From NCBI GenBank assembly GCA_001723765.1, contig MAYW01000001.1, forward strand, positions 1 through 64,000: a stretch of 64,000 bases of DNA, read 5' to 3'. Position 1 is the stretch's first letter; each line of letters begins with the position of its first letter. The DNA comes from Candidatus Scalindua rubra (GTDB lineage Bacteria; Planctomycetota; Brocadiia; Brocadiales; Scalinduaceae). Below the pieces are notes generated by a model. The model was given only the letters and a program-made list of their open reading frames with translations. It was not told the DNA's origin and made no database searches. This document shows positions 5,347 through 23,222 of this stretch, piece after piece. The translations under genes and the position numbers were made by a program.

Positions 5347-6864
5347 ATGGATAGAAAGCTCGTAAAAAATGAATGTTATAAAAACAAAAAGGTAACAGTG
5401 ATGGGATTGGGGTTATTTGGTGGAGGGGTTGGTGCCACCAAATTCCTTGTTTCTCAGGGTGCAGATATAACAGTAACAGACCTAAAAAGTGCTGACGGAT
5501 TATCAGCTTCTCTTAAACTGCTAAATGGTTTACCCGTCAAGTTTCGACTCGGGAAACACTATGAAGAAGATTTTTCTAACATAGACCTGTTGATTGTTAA
5601 CCCTGCTGTTTCGAATGATTCGAGATTCTTACAAATAGCAAGAGATAACGATGTCTGCATTGATACGGAGCTGAATATATTTTTTAAACTTTGTCCAGCA
5701 CCCGTAATAGGGGTTACGGGAAGTAATGGCAAGTCCACAACCACAACATTATTAGGAAAGATGCTAAAGGAAGGAAAAATTAAAACATGGATTGGCGGAA
5801 ACATAGGTGTTTCATTATTGGAATATCTTGGTGAAATAAAACCAAATGATGTAGTTGTCATTGAGATATCAAGTTTTCAGCTTGAATACCTCTCCAGGAT
5901 AGAGATAAGTCCACATATAAGTATAGTAACAAATATAGCACCAAATCACCTTGACAGACACAAGACCCTGGAGAACTATATAGACGCTAAAAAGGCAATT
6001 ATTCATTATCAAAAGGAGGATGATTACGTAATACTTAATTATGACGATCCGATATTGAGAAAATGGGAGAGCGAAATTAAAAGCAGTGTTCTATGGTTCA
6101 GTACTATGAAAGAAATGGAACAAGGGGCTTTCCTGAATAAAAATGAAATTGTTTTTAATCATAATTCTAAAAGTACCGTTATTCCTTGTTCAAAAAAAAT
6201 TAAGATAAAAGGTATTCATAACTTACAAAACATAATGGCAGCATCATGTGCTGCAATCGTAATGCATGCAGATGTCGAGGCTATTAATAATGTGATTACA
6301 AATTTTTCAGGGTTGGAACACCGATTGGAGTATGTATGCAGTATTAATGGGGTACAGTATTACAATGATTCAAAGGCAACTACACCTGAAGCCGCAATTG
6401 CAGGAATAAGGGCTTTTGATAGTCTATGTGAATCTGATCAATATCAAGCAGGTAACCTCGTTAGAGGCGGGCAAAGAGACCACCCCTTTTCCCCTCCTTT
6501 AAAAGGAGGGGATATAGGGGAGGTAGTTTTAATTGCAGGTGGTTATAATAAGAAAGTCAGTCTTCATCAGTTTGCGCAAGAGTGTGTAAAAAATACAAAA
6601 TACGTAATATTGATCGGAGAGACCGCTAAAAATATACAGGAACTTATTCAAAACATGAAAGGTGAAAAGGCACAACCGGAGGTTTATGTGGCAACATCTC
6701 TTGATGAGTCGGTGAGAAAGGCATCCGAAGTTGCTGAAGCCGGCGATGTCGTTTTACTATCTCCGGCATGCGCAAGTTACGATATGTTTACAAACTACGA
6801 AGAAAGAGGTAAAAAGTTTAAAGAACTCGTTGCCCAGTTGGATATTTGTAATCCTGCTAGTTAA
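5347..6864 (+). CDS. murD: UDP-N-acetylmuramoylalanine--D-glutamate ligase
   Basis: MurD adds D-glutamate to UDP-MurNAc-L-Ala in the cytoplasm, an early step of peptidoglycan synthesis. Visible marks: an N-terminal Rossmann motif V-M-G-L-G-L-F-G-G-G (about 18-27), the ATP loop G-V-T-G-S-N-G-K-S-T-T-T (about 122-133), E-I-S-S-F-Q-L-E, N-I-A-P-N-H-L-D-R-H, and late Y-N-D-S-K-A-T. At 505 residues it is longer than the usual 440-460. The excess is an in-frame insertion of about 30 residues (roughly 357-390) between R-A-F-D and V-V-L-I-A-G-G, encoded by a palindromic repeat. The frame stays open. The gene is not in a dcw cluster, which is unusual for murD. Confidence 0.93.
   Translation: MDRKLVKNECYKNKKVTVMGLGLFGGGVGATKFLVSQGADITVTDLKSADGLSASLKLLNGLPVKFRLGKHYEEDFSNIDLLIVNPAVSNDSRFLQIARDNDVCIDTELNIFFKLCPAPVIGVTGSNGKSTTTTLLGKMLKEGKIKTWIGGNIGVSLLEYLGEIKPNDVVVIEISSFQLEYLSRIEISPHISIVTNIAPNHLDRHKTLENYIDAKKAIIHYQKEDDYVILNYDDPILRKWESEIKSSVLWFSTMKEMEQGAFLNKNEIVFNHNSKSTVIPCSKKIKIKGIHNLQNIMAASCAAIVMHADVEAINNVITNFSGLEHRLEYVCSINGVQYYNDSKATTPEAAIAGIRAFDSLCESDQYQAGNLVRGGQRDHPFSPPLKGGDIGEVVLIAGGYNKKVSLHQFAQECVKNTKYVILIGETAKNIQELIQNMKGEKAQPEVYVATSLDESVRKASEVAEAGDVVLLSPACASYDMFTNYEERGKKFKELVAQLDICNPAS
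6455..6526 (+). repeat. Palindromic repeat inserted in frame in murD
   Basis: The core is a perfect palindrome at 6491-6511 (cccctccttt / aaaggagggg around one base), flanked by looser complementary arms (cacccctttt and ataggggagg). It encodes a Pro/Gly-rich stretch (P-F-S-P-P-L-K-G-G-D) absent from ordinary MurD. The outer limits of the insertion are inferred from where MurD similarity stops and resumes. Confidence 0.75.
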
Positions 6865-10113: not shown

Positions 10114-10710
10114 ATGAAAAATAAAACTGTGTTCGTTGACATAGATACTCAATTTGATTTCATGAATCCCAAAGGGACTCTTTATGTTCCAGATGCTGAA
10201 GACATAATTGACAACATTAAGAAACTTTTTGATTATGCAAAAGAAAACAAAATTAAAATATTATCTTCAATAGATGCACATAAGGTTGATGACCCAGAAT
10301 TTCAGACCTTTCCCTCTCATTGTGTGAAAGGCACTCCAGGCAATCAAAAGGTAGATGGAACTACATGCAAGGATAGTATCGTTTTTGAAAATAAGAGACA
10401 TGATATTAATCAAACTGTCCTGAATCATGATCAAATAATCGTAGAAAAGCAGTCTTTTGACATCTTTGACAACATAGATACAGACAAGATTATCATAAAT
10501 TTAGATGCGAGTAATTATGTCGTATTCGGCGTGGCAACAGACTATTGTGTTAAGGATGCTGTGCTTGGGCTGCTAAGACGCGGATATAAAGTTTCTCTGG
10601 TAACAGATGCGATTAAGGCTGTGAACAAAGAAGGAGAAAGAGAAGCTTTAAAGGAAATGAAAGATGCCGGAGCTGTTTTTATAACTACAGAGGATATTAC
10701 AAAAGTGTAA
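10114..10710 (+). CDS. Nicotinamidase/isochorismatase-family cysteine hydrolase
   Basis: At 198 residues it fits PncA-like amidases. The nucleophile-supporting aspartate lies in V-D-I-D-T-Q-F-D-F, the metal site pattern D-A-H...F-P-S-H-C-V-K-G-T-P-G (about 52-75) matches the Asp-x-His...His of nicotinamidases, a lysine sits in V-E-K-Q-S-F-D, and the catalytic cysteine is in V-A-T-D-Y-C-V-K-D (about 144-152). Nicotinamide deamidation in NAD salvage is the likely reaction. Two truncated copies of the 3' third of this gene lie at 11581-11760 and 15989-16144. Confidence 0.82.
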   Translation: MKNKTVFVDIDTQFDFMNPKGTLYVPDAEDIIDNIKKLFDYAKENKIKILSSIDAHKVDDPEFQTFPSHCVKGTPGNQKVDGTTCKDSIVFENKRHDINQTVLNHDQIIVEKQSFDIFDNIDTDKIIINLDASNYVVFGVATDYCVKDAVLGLLRRGYKVSLVTDAIKAVNKEGEREALKEMKDAGAVFITTEDITKV

Positions 10711-10874
10711 CCCTCAACTAAAAAAATTACTTTGTAGTAAATATGCTAAAAATTGTAAGTAGACATTCCTATCTTGTCTTTCCCTCTCTGGTTCAGTAAA
10801 ACGTTTCAGAATGTCAAATTGGTAAGGATATCTGTACTTTACTCCGTTTCGAATAAATTATCAAAGAGGAAAAG

Positions 10875-11564
10875 ATGGCAAAGAATCATGAAGAATGGTT
10901 TAAACAGGCTAATTATGATATAAAAACAGCTGAAATCATGTTCGACAACAAAAGATATATTTATGCAGTCTTTATGTGTCACCTAGCTATCGAAAAGGTT
11001 CTTAAAGGTTTATATACAAAGAAACTTTATAAATTACCCCCGAAAACACACAACCTTATTTATCTTATAGAAAGAATTAAACTTAAACTTCCTGAAGAGC
11101 TATATGATTTCATCTTTACTCTTAGCGGAGTAAGTATCCATACGCGCTATCCAGATGAGTTGCAAAGGATAAGTAAATACTATAATAAAACTAAGACAAA
11201 AGTATTGCTTGAAAAAAAGCAAAGGAGCGTTAAGATGGCTAAAAGCAACGTTAAAAAAGTAATTAAATTTTTAGAAGAGAGTTTAAGAGACAGTGGCTTG
11301 GAAGTGATTAAAATTATACTTTTCGGGTCGCATACAAGGAGAGAAGCAAATAGTGAAAGTGACATAGATGTGGTGATTGTGTCAGAGGATTTCCGTAATA
11401 AAGATATCTTTGAGAGGGTAAAGTTAATTAAAGAAGCCGAAATAAAGACGATTAAAAGATTTATGATACCCCTTGATATTATAACAATGACCCCTGAGGA
11501 ATTTGAAAGTGAGACCTCCCTAATCAGTAATTATGCCAGAAATGGTAAAGTGATTTATGGATAG
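10875..11564 (+). CDS. Single-chain HEPN-MNT protein (toxin-antitoxin type fusion)
   Basis: Residues 1 to about 118 are a HEPN domain (W-F-K-Q-A-N-Y-D-I-K-T-A-E at the start; H-L-A-I-E-K-V-L-K-G-L-Y; T-R-Y-P-D near the end). Residues about 121-229 are a minimal nucleotidyltransferase with the exact GSx10DxD motif (G-S-H-T-R-R-E-A-N-S-E-S-D-I-D). In HEPN-MNT systems these are usually separate genes, the nucleotidyltransferase neutralising the HEPN RNase by AMPylation. No clear RX4-6H catalytic motif is seen in this HEPN, so RNase activity is doubtful. An internal ATG at 11235 has its own AGGAG site (11223-11227), so the MNT part may also be made alone. Confidence 0.8.
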   Translation: MAKNHEEWFKQANYDIKTAEIMFDNKRYIYAVFMCHLAIEKVLKGLYTKKLYKLPPKTHNLIYLIERIKLKLPEELYDFIFTLSGVSIHTRYPDELQRISKYYNKTKTKVLLEKKQRSVKMAKSNVKKVIKFLEESLRDSGLEVIKIILFGSHTRREANSESDIDVVIVSEDFRNKDIFERVKLIKEAEIKTIKRFMIPLDIITMTPEEFESETSLISNYARNGKVIYG

Positions 11565-11580
11565 GTAAGGATAATTTCTT

Positions 11581-11760
11581 ATGGCAACAGATTATTGTGT
11601 AAAGGCAGCCGTCCTTGGGCTGCTAAGACGCGGATATAAAGTTTCTCTGGTAACAGATGCAATTAAGGCTGTGAACAAAGAAGGAGAAACAGAAGCCCTG
11701 AATGAAATGAAAGATGCCGGAGCTGTTTTCACAACCACAGAGGACATCATAACAACGTAA
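11581..11760 (+). pseudogene. Partial copy of the nicotinamidase 3' end (copy 2)
   Basis: An open 59-codon frame starting M-A-T-D-Y-C-V-K matches the last third of the intact hydrolase at 10114-10710 almost residue for residue (L-G-L-L-R-R-G-Y-K-V-S-L-V-T-D-A-I-K, then E-M-K-D-A-G-A-V-F). Nucleotide identity is also high and extends slightly past the stop. It keeps the catalytic cysteine but lacks the aspartate, metal-site and lysine segments, so it cannot be an active enzyme. A duplication remnant. Confidence 0.8.
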
Positions 11761-11921
11761 ACCTCAAATAAAATGATAAAATAACATTTTCTTTTGTAGA
11801 GTACATTTTTTGTAAAACAAAATCCATGCTTATTAGCATATTTGAAGATCACTTCCAACAACCCAAGAATCTTGTACTTATGAAAAGTAAAAAAATATAC
11901 CCTAAAGCTATTTGCAACTAG

Positions 11922-13431: not shown

Positions 13432-14080
13432 ATGGTAAGGAAGAAAAAATCCGACAAGAAACCTATTGAGCAATTTGACCATAAAGAGAAGAAGAGGGTT
13501 AATAATCCTCCTGTCGGACTTGTAACACCTGAAACCGATAAAGAAGGTAAGAAAAAGACCTATACATATGACCCTCACCTTGACCCACAACTCCAGTGGG
13601 CTGGCAAGGTACCTGCTGATGGATGATCTTAAAAAGAAACGTTCAAGTAATGATAGCTTCTGGCTTATGGGACAACCAGATGTAAGAGTAGAAAACATTA
13701 AAGAAGGGAAGGACAAGGGTAAATCCTCGACTAAGACATTCGAGGACAGGTATCGTGTGGAGGTGCAGGGGTTCGATTATTATAATACCAAGACCGGTAC
13801 GATTGAATCAGGTGGCACGGAAAGGATAGCTATGTGGATGTTGGACACCGACTATGACGGTAGAAGCTTATTTCCATGACAGGTGTTTTTCCAGATGGCA
13901 GGAGAAAAGGAAGGCTGGTCACGTCTGGCAAAGAATCTGAAGGCTGAGATAGATGAAAAACTAGTCGAGGCATATCGTGGCGCTGTTTCATTACCTTTTA
14001 CAAAAGGAGATCATCAGCACTTTGCTGTTAAAATAGTAGATGATAGAGGTATTGAAAGTCTTAAGATATTAGAAATATAG
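13432..14080 (+). pseudogene. Site-specific DNA methyltransferase remnant (core deleted)
   Basis: The N-terminal part (M-V-R-K-K-K-S-D-K-K-P-I-E-Q and N-N-P-P-V-G-L-V-T-P-E-T) and the C-terminal part (R-Y-R-V-E-V-Q-G-F-D-Y-Y, W-M-L-D-T-D-Y-D-G, and V-K-I-V-D-D-R-G-I-E-S-L-K) match type III-like modification methylases. The whole catalytic middle is absent. There is a frameshift near 13600 and an in-frame TGA at 13877-13879. The family is normally several times longer. Clearly dead. Confidence 0.7.
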
Positions 14081-14090
14081 ATAATAATTT

Positions 14091-14963
14091 ATGAAATATG
14101 AATTTCCTCAGAATATAAGGAGTAGCTTTGAAGGTTATAATGTCTTTATAGACTTTTATAATAAAACAGACGATATTTTCTTTGATGAAATTATACTGGA
14201 TTTAAAGAACACAACCTGGATTGAGGCGAATCTCTCAGCAATATTGGGCGCTATCTTAAACAAGATTGAGAATGAACTAAACGATGTAAAAATAATAAAT
14301 CCTTCGGATAAGATAGAAAAGTTGTTGGAAAGGAATCATTTTCTCAGCAATTTTGGAGGATATAAAATACCAGATATTTATGAAACGACAATAAAATACA
14401 GAAAGTTTAAGACGACTGAGGAAAAACTTTTTAAGGAGTATCTTGACAGGGAATTACTTTCAAAAGAGGCTATGCCTGAAATGTCAACTTTGCTAAGAAA
14501 AAAAATAAATGAGAGCATCTTTGAAATCTTCAATAATGCTATAATACATGGAAATTGTAAAAATATATTTAGTTGCGGCCAGTATTATCGAACTAAAAAA
14601 AGATTGGATTTTACTATAGTTGATCTTGGAAGAACAATCAAATCAAATGTAAAAGACTATGTTAACCAAGACATTTCTGGAAAAGATGCTATTAAATGGG
14701 CTATAGCTGAAGGAAACACAACAAAACTTGGAGAGATCCCAGGGGGGTTGGGATTAAGTTTGATAAGAGAGTTTTTGGGAAAAAACAATGGCAAGATTCA
14801 GATAGTTTCAGAAGATGGATACTGGGAACAAAAAGGATGTAATGAAAGAGAAGAATGTTTTAGTCAAATTTTTCCGGGAACAATTGTTAATCTGGAATTT
14901 AATATTGATGACAAAAGTTATTATTATCTATTGTCTGAAATAAACGAAGATGAAATATTCTGA
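14091..14963 (+). CDS. GHKL ATPase with STAS-like N-terminus (module gene 1)
   Basis: A 290-residue protein. Residues about 20-75 resemble a STAS fold (I-I-L-D-L-K-N-T-T-W-I-E-A-N-L-S-A). Residues about 135-275 are a GHKL-type ATPase: N-box E-I-F-N-N-A-I-I-H-G (about 147-156), D-L-G-R-T, and G-G-L-G-L-S-L-I-R-E-F-L (about 221-232). No phosphoacceptor histidine or transmembrane part is seen, so it is closer to anti-sigma kinases than to sensor kinases. It is followed after 15 bases by a STAS-like gene and then a PIN gene in overlap, implying one operon. Role unknown; a regulatory switch controlling the PIN nuclease is an inference. Confidence 0.7.
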   Translation: MKYEFPQNIRSSFEGYNVFIDFYNKTDDIFFDEIILDLKNTTWIEANLSAILGAILNKIENELNDVKIINPSDKIEKLLERNHFLSNFGGYKIPDIYETTIKYRKFKTTEEKLFKEYLDRELLSKEAMPEMSTLLRKKINESIFEIFNNAIIHGNCKNIFSCGQYYRTKKRLDFTIVDLGRTIKSNVKDYVNQDISGKDAIKWAIAEGNTTKLGEIPGGLGLSLIREFLGKNNGKIQIVSEDGYWEQKGCNEREECFSQIFPGTIVNLEFNIDDKSYYYLLSEINEDEIF

Positions 14964-14978
14964 AAGGGGAAGAGAGAG

Positions 14979-15329
14979 ATGAAAGAAATTAAAATAATCA
15001 TTTTTGAGCATATTGGCAGTAGCGCTGCGGTCTCAACTGATGATGGTGAATTATTGTTTGAAAGAGTTATTAAGGCATTAGAGAATGATGTTAGGGTGAT
15101 ACTCGATTTCAACAATATCGAACTTATTACATCAACCTTTCTGAATGCGGCAATCGGTCAGTTATACAGTAAATATGACAGCCCTTTTTTGAGAAATCAT
15201 CTTAAAGTAAACAATCTTTCAAATGAAGATCTGAATCTCTTAAAAAAAGTTGTTGATAGAGCAAAAGATTATTTCAAAGATAAAGAACGAATGGAGAAAA
15301 ACATTTCAAAGGTATTGGATGATGAATAA
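14979..15329 (+). CDS. STAS-like DUF4325-type protein (module gene 2)
   Basis: A 116-residue protein with the pattern of STAS-like DUF4325: an N-terminal strand, a helix (G-E-L-L-F-E-R-V-I-K), then V-I-L-D-F-N-N-I-E-L-I-T-S-T-F-L-N-A-A-I-G-Q-L-Y (about 37-61), where the serine/threonine after the strand corresponds to the usual STAS phosphorylation region. The ribosome binding site is strong (gaaaggggaagagagag). In other bacteria STAS domains pair with GHKL kinases as antagonists, which suits its position between the ATPase and PIN genes. Its last codons overlap the PIN start. Confidence 0.72.
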   Translation: MKEIKIIIFEHIGSSAAVSTDDGELLFERVIKALENDVRVILDFNNIELITSTFLNAAIGQLYSKYDSPFLRNHLKVNNLSNEDLNLLKKVVDRAKDYFKDKERMEKNISKVLDDE

Positions 15330-15885
15330 CATCGCTGCTATTGACAGTTTTCAACCTCAAGAAAAAGACAAATTCTTCTTTGATACAAATATATGGATGT
15401 ACCTGTATTGCCCTATGGGTGGTCACAACCGTAGTATTATAAAAAAATATGATGCATTTCTTAAGAAAGTTATACAAGCGAGGTCTTCTATTTATATATC
15501 TTCTCTGGTACTTTCAGAATTCTTTAATGCTTACACTAGGCTGGAGTTCAACATACTTAAGGGAAAAGAGCCTACTAAATATCATGATTTTAAAAAGGAT
15601 TTTAGAGGGACTTCTGATTATAAAAAATTGGTATTGGATATAAAAACAACTGTTGAGTCTTATATATTAAAGTTGGCCAAAAGGTTAGATGATAATTTTA
15701 GTAGCATTGACCTGGACGACCTTTTTGAGGATATTGAAAAATCTGACTTTAACGACAACTATTGTTTAATACTCGTTGCTGGAGAAAATATAAAGGTAGT
15801 AACCAATGACTATGATTTTGTTTCAACAAAAAAGATAAAAGTACCAATTCTAACTGCAAACGATAAGTTATTGAAAGGAACATAA
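15319..15885 (+). CDS. PIN-domain nuclease (module gene 3)
   Basis: A protein of about 188 residues with what looks like a complete PIN catalytic set: F-F-D-T-N-I-W-M-Y-L (first aspartate, about 20), L-V-L-S-E-F-F-N-A (glutamate), D-F-N-D-N-Y-C-L-I-L (late aspartates) and V-T-N-D-Y-D-F. PIN proteins are metal-dependent RNases; VapC toxins are smaller (about 130-140). The ATGATG at 15319-15324 overlaps the stop of the STAS-like gene and follows an AAAGG site, so coupled translation is likely. This start is preferred over a TTG at 15250. Unlike the other PIN remnant nearby, this one looks intact. Confidence 0.75.
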   Translation: MMNNIAAIDSFQPQEKDKFFFDTNIWMYLYCPMGGHNRSIIKKYDAFLKKVIQARSSIYISSLVLSEFFNAYTRLEFNILKGKEPTKYHDFKKDFRGTSDYKKLVLDIKTTVESYILKLAKRLDDNFSSIDLDDLFEDIEKSDFNDNYCLILVAGENIKVVTNDYDFVSTKKIKVPILTANDKLLKGT

Positions 15886-15988: not shown

Positions 15989-16144
15989 ATGGCAGCCATC
16001 CTTGGGTTGATAAGACGTGGATATAAAGTTTCTCTGGTTACAGATGCGATTAAGACTGTTAACGAAGAAGGAGGAGAAGCCCTGAATGAAATGAAAGATG
16101 CCGGAGCTGTTTTCACAACCACAGAGGATATCATATCAAGGTAA
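15989..16144 (+). pseudogene. Partial copy of the nicotinamidase 3' end (copy 3)
   Basis: A 51-codon frame (M-A-A-I-L-G-L-I-R-R-G-Y-K-V-S-L-V-T-D) repeats the C-terminal part of the hydrolase at 10114-10710. It shares A-V-F-T-T-T-E-D-I-I with copy 2 rather than with the intact gene, so it probably derives from copy 2 or from a common ancestor of both. It lacks even the catalytic cysteine. Remnant only. Confidence 0.78.
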
Positions 16145-16175
16145 ACCCCAATCAGAAAGATAACTGTATATTAAG

Positions 16176-16366
16176 AATGCCAAATATTAACGAAGCTACA
16201 GATACAGAATTTTGGTAATATAAAATTTTAAAAGCAAATAGTTGAAAAGTTAGATAAGCAAATGCAGGCATTGGAAAGCGTTCGACTTTTGCGCAAAGAA
16301 GCAGAAAAAAGAATCGAGGAAATCCTGACGGAAGTTTGGGGAGAGGATGGTTCTACAAAAGAATAA
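16176..16366 (+). pseudogene. Joined restriction-gene fragments, ending in an HsdS-like C-terminus
   Basis: Bases 16176-16200 repeat the M-P-N-I-N-E-A-T coding stretch found at about 13107. From 16232 another frame reads K-Q-I-V-E-K-L-D-K-Q-M-Q-A-L and R-L-L-R-K-E-A-E-K-R-I-E-E-I-L to a stop at 16366. This is the coiled-coil C-terminus typical of type I specificity subunits (HsdS). Only about 45 of some 400 residues remain. Confidence 0.6.
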
Positions 16367-20173: not shown

Positions 20174-20647
20174 TTATATTGTTGTACGTTTAGAAGTTGG
20201 GAAATTTATTCTATGATACTGATAAAAATCAACTTGTTGGGGTGTTAAATAATGATAAATTTGTGGTGGGTGGAAATTAGGCCACTTTTCTTTCAAATTT
20301 TCCAAATGTAGTGGTTCAGTAAGTTGCCAAGCTTTTTTAAGAAAAATACCATAACCAACTATTGCACCAGTATAGTAACTGTTAAACTCTTTGCGATTAA
20401 TACAAGCGTAATTTTGTACCTTTTTCCAGAGTAAGTCGGGTCGAGCTTTGATAATTTTTCCTACCTCAAATTCACCCACTAATGCCTTCACTGGAGATGA
20501 TACATATACTAAAACAAGATCACCCTCTATTACTTTAGGGCAGAAGCGGCGTAATTCAACTGTTTTTGTGCCTTTAAAAATTTTATCTGCATATTTTGGC
20601 TTAATCGATAGTAATACCATGTTATTTGTTGTAGCGTTTCCTTTCAT
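20174..20647 (-). CDS. ASCH-domain protein partnered with the GNAT-PIN gene
   Basis: A 157-residue protein whose first half is an ASCH/PUA-like RNA-binding fold: V-L-L-S-I-K-P-K-Y-A-D-K-I-F-K-G-T-K-T-V-E-L-R-R (the K-P-x-x-A-x-x-I-x-x-G-x-K-x-x-E-x-R pattern, about 11-34), D-L-V-L-V-Y-V-S-S-P and G-E-F-E-V-G. ASCH domains bind or modify RNA and some are nucleases. The ATG overlaps the stop of the upstream GNAT-PIN gene by four bases (ATGA), a sign of translational coupling, so the two probably act together. Function otherwise unknown. Confidence 0.75.
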   Translation of the reverse strand: MKGNATTNNMVLLSIKPKYADKIFKGTKTVELRRFCPKVIEGDLVLVYVSSPVKALVGEFEVGKIIKARPDLLWKKVQNYACINRKEFNSYYTGAIVGYGIFLKKAWQLTEPLHLENLKEKWPNFHPPQIYHYLTPQQVDFYQYHRINFPTSKRTTI

Positions 20648-22737
20648 TTTAATTGCTGACCTATGGAATAAATTTCCGAGAAAATTTGACTTGAAACCTG
20701 ACGAGGGGATCGAAAATTAGGTAGGTAAGCAGCTTTTGTCAAAATAGATTTAACTCTCTTTAACGGTATTGGGTTTGTAAAAAGCTCAGTATCACTAAAG
20801 CGAATTGCCATAATATTCAGATTATTATCTTTTTTAGCTATGCTAAAGATGTTTTCCCACTTGTACACTCCCAAGCGACGAAATTGTTTGTATAAAGTTT
20901 TAGGTTGGCCAATTGTAATTTCATCAAGTCTGGAGCAGGCTCGGATATGCTTTGTCCCAAAATACTTAGGATCACTACTAATATACCATAAGATTCTACC
21001 TGGAGCCTTTAAACCAGCAGGAAAATGTTTTGAACGATAATATACACTTTCACGATTAAAAGCAAGCGCAAGTTTTGCTCCAAAAAGTGTCTGATTTGCT
21101 AAGTTCTTATCAAACAAATGATGTGCCCACAAAGCCTTGATTGGTACTATAAATGTGGGGATGTTAGCATTTGCTATTTTGGCAGGCCAAAGAGCTTGTT
21201 CAATATCTGCCATAGTCTTAGAATCATTAATTGAACTATCTTGTTGGAGAATAGTAGCCAGTTCAGAAAGAATGTTATATTCCTTATCATTAATAGAGCT
21301 TAAATTTAGTAGGCGCTTTGCTAATAAATCGGAAGTTTCTAAAACTGCCAAATTTGCCTTCAACCAGCTATTCTTAACTTGGAAAAAGCCATCTTCCTGT
21401 AGCGCAACAAGAATAATGTCTTCCAAAAATGGATCGGTAACTTTGGTAAATGTTCTTTGTTCTTTAGATGATAGAATTACGGATTGAAAAATTAAGTATC
21501 TTGCAAGTGTGCCAGCCAGAGAGCCACGCTTAACGCGGAACATTGGTATTCCTAATTCGTGAAGGTTTTGTTTCTCATACACAACCAATGCGAGTGGTGT
21601 ATCTTTTTTATCTAAGGCAACTTTACAAGTATATCTCTCTGGATATGCTATGTATTGACGTAAACGTTGTTGAAATTTGACTTTGGTTTCTCCTAGATTA
21701 GAAGGTTGAAAGTACTGAGTCAGGACAGTTTCTTCACCACTTTGAACTCGTTTTGTTTTTGAAAGTGTACCCGCAAAACGGGATGCCTTGTATTCAGTTT
21801 CACGGCGAAATTCATCAAGTTTACTTATGAGACCCGCCGGACTAACTATTGATATACCAAAAGTATCGTATATTTGTTCTGCTCTCTTCTCCAACATATT
21901 TCCATCTCGTGTGACAAAAAATTGGGTCTCGGAAGCTATTGTTTTAGCAAGCTGATATAGATCAGACTGATCACTTTCTGTGATTTTTTTTGGAAACAGA
22001 TGTCGTATGGAAGCAGTTACCTTTTCGACCTGTACAGGTTGGCAGTTAACACATGTGTATCTATTTCGTGCTAGATTAAATTTTTTTCTTCTCTCTAGAG
22101 TATTTTCATTACGATTGATTTCATTAAATAATTCGTCAGTGATGCACAATTCCAAATTATCTTGTAACCAATCTGCTTGTAAGGCTTTCGATTCTTCATT
22201 ACCATTTTTGTCATTTAGGTCAAAAAAAATGTTAGCATCAATGACTACTTTTAACTTAGATACTACTTGATTTTTAACTGCTAGGGTAAATAAATTTGGG
22301 TGTCCGTAATCAAGCCACCAAACTGTCAATTCTTTACCCTCTTTATTTTTACCAGGTATGTTGCTTTGAGCAACAAACCCCAATCTTGGCCATATTTTAT
22401 TAGCCTCAAAGTCACGGCGACATGACAGTCTTATACCATAATGATCTTTTGTTATAGTTTTTAGATAAGCAACTAATTTCTTTGCAATGCCTTGGCCTCT
22501 CATTGCTTTATTAATGCACAAATGGTGAATAGTAACAACACGACCACGATAACTTCGGTATAGTAAATAACCAATGCACCTGTTTTCATCGTCAATGGCT
22601 ACAAGAATATTACGTTTCGCAGCATACTCTTCAAAAGCACCATCTGGGAAAAACCCAAGTGTAGTTGAACTTGTTCGCCACAACAATTTTACAGATTGCA
22701 AGTATGGAGATTCACTATCGACGACTTCTATTTTCAT
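20644..22737 (-). CDS. GNAT acetyltransferase-PIN fusion with large C-terminal region
   Basis: A 697-residue multidomain protein. Residues about 1-150 are a GNAT acetyltransferase (H-H-L-C-I-N-K-A-M-R-G-Q-G-I-A-K-K-L, with the acetyl-CoA loop R-G-Q-G-I-A). Residues about 160-310 are a PIN nuclease (V-V-I-D-A-N-I-F-F-D-L; D-E-L-F-N-E-I; D-Q-S-D-L-Y; F-V-T-R-D-G-N). The remaining 380 residues hold no domain I can name firmly, but the end (I-L-W-Y-I-S-S-D-P, then R-A-C-S-R-L-D-E) looks EVE/PUA-like. The ATG at 22737 has a strong AAGGAAGG site. Together with the overlapping ASCH gene it forms a two-gene unit among toxin and restriction remnants, so a defence or RNA-targeting role is inferred. Confidence 0.75.
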   Translation of the reverse strand: MKIEVVDSESPYLQSVKLLWRTSSTTLGFFPDGAFEEYAAKRNILVAIDDENRCIGYLLYRSYRGRVVTIHHLCINKAMRGQGIAKKLVAYLKTITKDHYGIRLSCRRDFEANKIWPRLGFVAQSNIPGKNKEGKELTVWWLDYGHPNLFTLAVKNQVVSKLKVVIDANIFFDLNDKNGNEESKALQADWLQDNLELCITDELFNEINRNENTLERRKKFNLARNRYTCVNCQPVQVEKVTASIRHLFPKKITESDQSDLYQLAKTIASETQFFVTRDGNMLEKRAEQIYDTFGISIVSPAGLISKLDEFRRETEYKASRFAGTLSKTKRVQSGEETVLTQYFQPSNLGETKVKFQQRLRQYIAYPERYTCKVALDKKDTPLALVVYEKQNLHELGIPMFRVKRGSLAGTLARYLIFQSVILSSKEQRTFTKVTDPFLEDIILVALQEDGFFQVKNSWLKANLAVLETSDLLAKRLLNLSSINDKEYNILSELATILQQDSSINDSKTMADIEQALWPAKIANANIPTFIVPIKALWAHHLFDKNLANQTLFGAKLALAFNRESVYYRSKHFPAGLKAPGRILWYISSDPKYFGTKHIRACSRLDEITIGQPKTLYKQFRRLGVYKWENIFSIAKKDNNLNIMAIRFSDTELFTNPIPLKRVKSILTKAAYLPNFRSPRQVSSQIFSEIYSIGQQLK

Positions 22738-23222
22738 AAAAACCTTCCTTAGGCCGCAATACATTACTTTTGTTTAGTAAAACAATTTTCACTCACAAAG
22801 TCAAATCAACTCTTGACTCAACCGAAAGCTACGAATGCCATGCACATTAGCCACAACGCAATAACACTGACAGTACCGTAGTAGCAACCTATTACATAAT
22901 CAATTCTCTTATGGTACTATCAAAAAATTGAGTAATAAGGTACGGTCTGGTTTTTCATTTCTTACTTAACAACTCTATTTCAATATGCTGCACAATTACT
23001 GAAATAAACCTGTCCTGACGCTTGTCCTGATGAAAATCAGGGACAGGTCAGGATTCAGCACAAGCTTTTTTAGCCTTCTTTTTTCGGAGTTCATAAAAAC
23101 TTGCTTTTTAGCAAGAAGAAATTTATACTAGAAATGTTTCTTTTTGAACAACGAGAACCAATATTGCCAAAAACAATTGATGCCGTATATGGAAATGGCG
23201 CCTTTTAATGGAGGTGGATTAA
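22738..23222. other. Intergenic region with a widespread repeat
   Basis: No gene is supported. Bases about 23009-23065 hold cctgtcctga ... tcaggacagg-type complementary arms followed by attcagcacaag; a shorter version is at about 63557-63590. The remaining sequence is AT-rich. A ribosome binding site (tggaggtgg, about 23210-23218) belongs to the gene starting at 23223. Confidence 0.55.

Follow-up and report, generated by a model that had tools for sequence, protein, structure and literature searches.

The window, a stretch of 64,000 nucleotides from Candidatus Scalindua rubra, contains three consecutive genes on the plus strand that are designated vapK, vapS and vapC after the operon to which they are assigned below. 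vapK (14091..14963) encodes a 290-aa protein with a predicted STAS-like N-terminal domain and a GHKL kinase-type ATPase, vapS (14979..15329) a DUF4325 STAS-like putative antitoxin of 116 aa that ends in a predicted C-terminal helix, and vapC (15319..15885) a putative PIN ribonuclease toxin of 187-188 aa. vapK and vapS are separated by 15 bases. vapC starts with an ATG at 15319 or 15322 and therefore overlaps vapS by 8-11 bases; a longer frame that begins with a TTG at 15250 is a mechanical ORF around vapC. All three frames are open at these positions, which bears out the sequence-only reading of three intact genes on one strand with a 15-base gap and an overlap.

VapK is matched weakly by the Pfam HATPase_c profile (E 0.0075, below the cut-off) and strongly by phrog_3364, an unnamed phage family of PHROGs (E 2e-41). 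The structure models of this study were built from alignments of the window and the genome and viral-contig loci only; that of VapK (pLDDT 92, pTM 0.91) has the anti-sigma kinase SpoIIAB as its best fold match in the PDB. The nucleotide-binding motifs comprise E145 and N149 of the N-box, H153, D178 and G180 of the G1 box, and G219 and G221 of the G2 box, and across 91 kinases E145, N149, H153, G180, G219 and G221 are invariant. The high-confidence model and the invariant N-box and G2-box residues secure the prediction that VapK is of the GHKL kinase type. Its G1 box reads DLGRTI, compared with the usual DxGxG, and ten sequences in all carry that Thr. The N-terminal part shows weak matches to the antagonists TM1442, RsbS and SpoIIAA which, together with the model, support a STAS-like domain. 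The earlier description of an ATPase with a STAS-like N-terminus is upheld by the GHKL model, the SpoIIAB fold match, the invariant boxes and these weak STAS matches. Position 43, the aromatic W43 in the window, is W or F in 88 of the 91 sequences and is likely the counterpart of the ssDNA-site aromatic residue (F54 in Escherichia VapK, W68 in CapK). The closest relative of the window VapK, with 64% identity over 289 columns, stems from a bin of the Cloacimonadota, another phylum, which points to exchange between phyla.

VapS was recognized by Pfam as DUF4325 (E 7e-17), in agreement with its initial designation as a DUF4325 STAS-like protein. Its model (pLDDT 90) is STAS-like and places Ser52 where a helix begins; the fold is nearest to STAS antagonists such as RsbV, with no match passing E 0.001, and a C-terminal helix spanning residues 102-114 is predicted at lower confidence. 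Ser52 (codon 15132-15134) is the putative phospho-acceptor, and this position is occupied by Ser or Thr in 91 of 91 sequences (59 Ser, 32 Thr). VapC belongs to the Pfam PIN family (E 6e-8). E66, D142, D145 and D163 are invariant in 81 sequences; D21 is absent from a single row, which has a gap. The acidic residues with which the PIN gene had been credited are all present and are conserved on alignment, and the active site is complete.

In profile searches of the PDB, the best and only strong match of the STAS protein was chain A of 9Z7O (Escherichia VapS, E 2e-28), and that of the PIN protein was chain C of the same entry (Escherichia VapC, E 1e-24). The window STAS protein by itself also had VapS of 9Z7O as its best match (E 5e-16). 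By single sequence, the match to Escherichia VapS was at E 2e-17 and that to Escherichia VapC at E 5e-8, values that set the window copy far apart from the Escherichia system that was studied. Ser52 of the window VapS aligns with Ser48 of Escherichia VapS and Asp21 of the window VapC with Asp28 of Escherichia VapC; the window operon therefore belongs to vapKSC. It is very probable that the trio is a vapKSC operon that works by kinase-switched release of VapC. PADLOC 2023, NCBIfam and Pfam provided no name for the trio and PHROGs only an unknown family; matches to DrmA were weak (E 0.002-0.007).

The operon was named vapKSC by Chambers et al. (EMBO J, 9 June 2026; PMC13373217). That article lists 289 instances, 36% of which have another immune gene within 10 kb. 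Escherichia VapC is toxic and loses its toxicity when D28 is mutated. VapS neutralizes VapC in a 2:2 complex, the structure of which was determined with the proteins of Escherichia sp. E4736 (PDB 9Z7O), and neutralization is abolished by deletion of the VapS C-terminus or by the phospho-mimic S48E. vapKSC protects against phage Bas42 by about 2 logs, an effect that is lost with VapC D28A, VapS S48A or VapK F54A. Activation of VapK by ssDNA was inferred from a prediction and from the related CapK, in which it had been demonstrated; VapK itself was insoluble, and its kinase activity and ssDNA binding were not demonstrated directly. In the Escherichia system, the phosphorylation of VapS by VapK and the RNA cut by VapC are likewise inferred. 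The sequence-only reading had proposed a partner switch of GHKL and STAS proteins for a nuclease, of toxin-antitoxin or defence type, and had not recognized the arrangement as described. Given the published vapKSC homologues, the guessed mechanism holds, in agreement with what was shown or modelled in PMC13373217, and the claim of novelty falls.

According to the proposed mechanism, the STAS protein VapS binds the PIN protein VapC and blocks it, the C-terminal helix of VapS extending in the direction of the active site. VapK would be activated, most likely by ssDNA arising from DNA damage or phage infection, and would then phosphorylate VapS on the conserved Ser/Thr, Ser52 in the window copy. 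Phosphorylated VapS would release VapC, and free VapC would cut RNA, probably tRNA or rRNA, such that growth stops and the spread of the phage is limited. Where the operon is embedded in restriction operons, the switch may serve as a second line that is fired by restriction-made DNA ends and ssDNA. For the window copy, gene content, gene order, residues and family membership are established here; by analogy, it would be expressed and function like the Escherichia system.

The window operon and VapKSC of Escherichia sp. E4736 share the number and order of the genes, the domains, the phospho-acceptor Ser/Thr and the PIN active site; a C-terminal helix, present in Escherichia VapS, is predicted at lower confidence for that of the window. 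The window copy differs by its low identity, by its G1-box variant, by its VapK, which in the VapK tree falls in a different clade from the Escherichia-like sequences, and by the decayed type III-like methylase that adjoins it. SpoIIAB/SpoIIAA and RsbW/RsbV pair a GHKL kinase with a STAS antagonist of the same folds as in the window, but they control sigma factors, whereas the partner in the window is a nuclease and a STAS-like domain is part of the predicted kinase itself. VapBC likewise combines a PIN toxin with a neighbouring antitoxin gene; however, its antitoxin is the DNA-binding VapB, whereas the upstream partner in the window is a DUF4325/STAS protein that would be under kinase control. 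PrrC and RloC are restriction-linked anticodon nucleases with an ABC-type ATPase and another nuclease fold. They resemble vapKSC as RNA-cutting toxins in or near restriction operons, but the window VapC (187 aa) consists of one PIN domain and lacks the ABC-type ATPase fusion, and the trio has its own inhibitor. CapK and CapS are likewise a STAS+GHKL kinase and a STAS substrate with a conserved Ser/Thr; CapK has an N-terminal HTH, CapS a C-terminal wHTH, and both control transcription (PMC13373217). Judged by the models and the lengths of the proteins, the window VapK and VapS have no room for an HTH or wHTH.

Conservation of the trio was examined in 80 loci fetched after a scan of species genomes with the window's subfamily (the closer alignment A4). 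In 75 of them all three genes occur in the same order on one strand; the five exceptions comprise four contig ends and one locus whose kinase gene is truncated. The sample leans to the window's side of the family and under-samples the Escherichia-like clade; having been drawn with the window's subfamily, it gives frequencies for this part of the family. The trio is found together in unrelated genomes, and its recurrence is far beyond chance. The hosts belong to the Bacteroidota, Pseudomonadota, Chloroflexota, Spirochaetota, Poribacteria and Planctomycetota and include one archaeal bin; the same gene order occurs on a Deinococcus plasmid, in a Streptococcus prophage and on a faecal phage contig. 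No trio was found in close relatives from the genome's own family. This toxin-antitoxin family has been studied in a single strain of Escherichia; it is old and has been exchanged widely, with members in numerous bacterial phyla, one archaeal bin, temperate phages and a Deinococcus plasmid. At 6122-6649 of Streptococcus phage Javan172 (L020), VapC is unannotated and only a 120-base frame is listed; its vapKSC, which adjoins an integrase, is thereby hidden.

About a third of the sampled loci adjoin a type I or type III restriction-modification (R-M) system. Same-strand type III components lie within reach of the trio in 15 of the 80 loci and type I components in 10; at a distance of no more than 300 bases on the same strand there remain 13 type III and 6 type I loci (19/80), and the order mod-vapKSC-res is realized in 10. 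A complete locus of this order is that of Nitrosomonas nitrosa (L066). The link to restriction is carried by precise position and strand and not by mere proximity. The restriction labels were confirmed with PADLOC and Pfam for representatives, except the Res of L051, for which there was no PADLOC family and which Pfam assigned to ResIII. In three further loci (L115, L117, L118) the trio is located within Hma helicase-methylase operons. Mapped on the VapK tree, the context labels, R-M remnants included, require 5 changes, compared with a mean of 16.3 after shuffling, which indicates that the association is old and heritable, yet arose more than once. It is one-sided, since none of 30 Mod relatives from the phylum had the trio in the fetched flanks of about 1.5 kb, where the genes found differ. 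In most of the sampled loci no restriction gene is within reach. In the main text of PMC13373217 restriction systems are mentioned for capKS, and no such mention was found for vapKSC. We tentatively propose, at somewhat less than even chances, that vapKSC is a cargo of R-M operons: restriction cuts would fire VapK, VapC would kill or stop the cell when restriction is losing, and second-line cassettes of this kind, able to outlast the restriction genes, would be slotted into the mod-res gap of type III systems. Through its placement within type I, type III and Hma operons, vapKSC points to a concrete connection of restriction with programmed growth arrest that can be tested. In L174-L181 and other Mod relatives, the downstream gap of the type III Mod holds varying genes and resembles a cargo slot.

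In the window itself, the trio is directly preceded by a remnant of a type III-like DNA methyltransferase (13613..14071, plus strand) that comprises the C-terminal approximately 150 codons (its residues 599-750; 72% identity by tblastn) and is interrupted by an in-frame TGA at 13877-13879; it is not functional. Downstream lie a truncated Fic gene and, at 16240..16366 of the plus strand, a short stretch that, judging by its sequence, may be the C-terminal remnant of a restriction specificity subunit. No Res was found in the 14 kb of the window searched. The trio had been described as undamaged among dead restriction and toxin genes; this is true of the methylase and Fic remnants that flank it, whereas two other loci are open. 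One, at 10875-11564 (plus strand), is a single frame of 229 aa in which HEPN and nucleotidyltransferase (MNT), usually the domains of two toxin-antitoxin genes, are fused. The other, at 20174-22764 (minus strand), is a pair that matches the PADLOC candidate defence families PDC-M11A/PDC-M11B and consists of a 706-aa GNAT + PIN_3 protein and a 157-aa partner. An isochorismatase-family gene at 10114-10710 has its 3' end repeated twice more with 72-94% identity, depending on the piece; the copies (10532-10754, 11582-11804 and 15991-16188) flank the Mod remnant and vapKSC, as if the end of this gene were an insertion site.

Decayed R-M genes next to open trios are found in other loci. L062 has retained residues 1-30 and 697-733 of Mod and 1-69 of Res, and L134 residues 1-58 of Mod and 1-37 of Res; in L058, L070, L071 and L096 Mod is truncated. 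The loci were chosen by the presence of the kinase, so that these counts give no rate of retention of the trio versus restriction genes. Intact trios beside wrecked R-M genes mean that the switch can do without the restriction enzyme. An intact trio amid decay agrees with a self-contained damage sensor and argues against silencing of the PrrC type, in which the neighbouring R-M complex would keep VapC silent and a phage anti-restriction protein that hits the complex would release it. Such a guard could account for the trios directly beside type III or type I genes (19/80, ten of them mod-trio-res) and for the 5 label changes against 16.3. It is nevertheless improbable, because the trio has its own inhibitor, the homologous VapC is neutralized without restriction genes (PMC13373217), the majority of the sampled loci lack a restriction gene within reach, and intact trios persist by wrecked ones in the window, L062, L070, L096 and L134. 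An undescribed R-M guard of the PrrC type, considered as a candidate, was overturned by the match to 9Z7O and the paper on that structure; the decayed R-M genes beside intact trios count against silencing by R-M.

The broken genes that fill the neighbourhood, the lack of the trio in close relatives from the genome's own family and the variant G1 box might suggest a relic, the frames of which are open by chance and which is neither expressed nor active in this genome. That is very unlikely, as three frames are open, every tested catalytic residue is kept and the G1 variant is common to relatives. Least credible is a CapKS-like transcription pair that lies by chance before a PIN gene and in which a promoter would be repressed by the STAS protein and derepressed through the kinase. 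The kinase and STAS families are the same as those of CapK and CapS, and the phylum has proteins in which HTH, GHKL and DUF4325 are fused; however, the 116-aa STAS protein consists of STAS and one helix and has no DNA-binding domain, the kinase has no HTH, and the homologous VapS was crystallized on VapC (PMC13373217). Kinase-switched release of VapC by a vapKSC operon is the preferred reading.

CapS-like DUF4325 proteins of 189-202 aa, composed of STAS and a possible wHTH, are widespread in the order (L002, 1414-1983; G034 and G036-G040). In several genomes a GHKL protein is encoded approximately 4-11 kb away on the same contig, perhaps as the other half of a separated CapKS-like pair. In seven loci (L147, L151-L153, L155, L157 and L159) GHKL and DUF4325 form one chain of about 280-380 aa, several with an N-terminal HTH. 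The fusion with the HTH, which is common in the phylum, was rejected as a candidate; it is a different regulator, with no PIN gene within the approximately 1.5 kb fetched. The single-chain form supports a direct partnership of GHKL and DUF4325.
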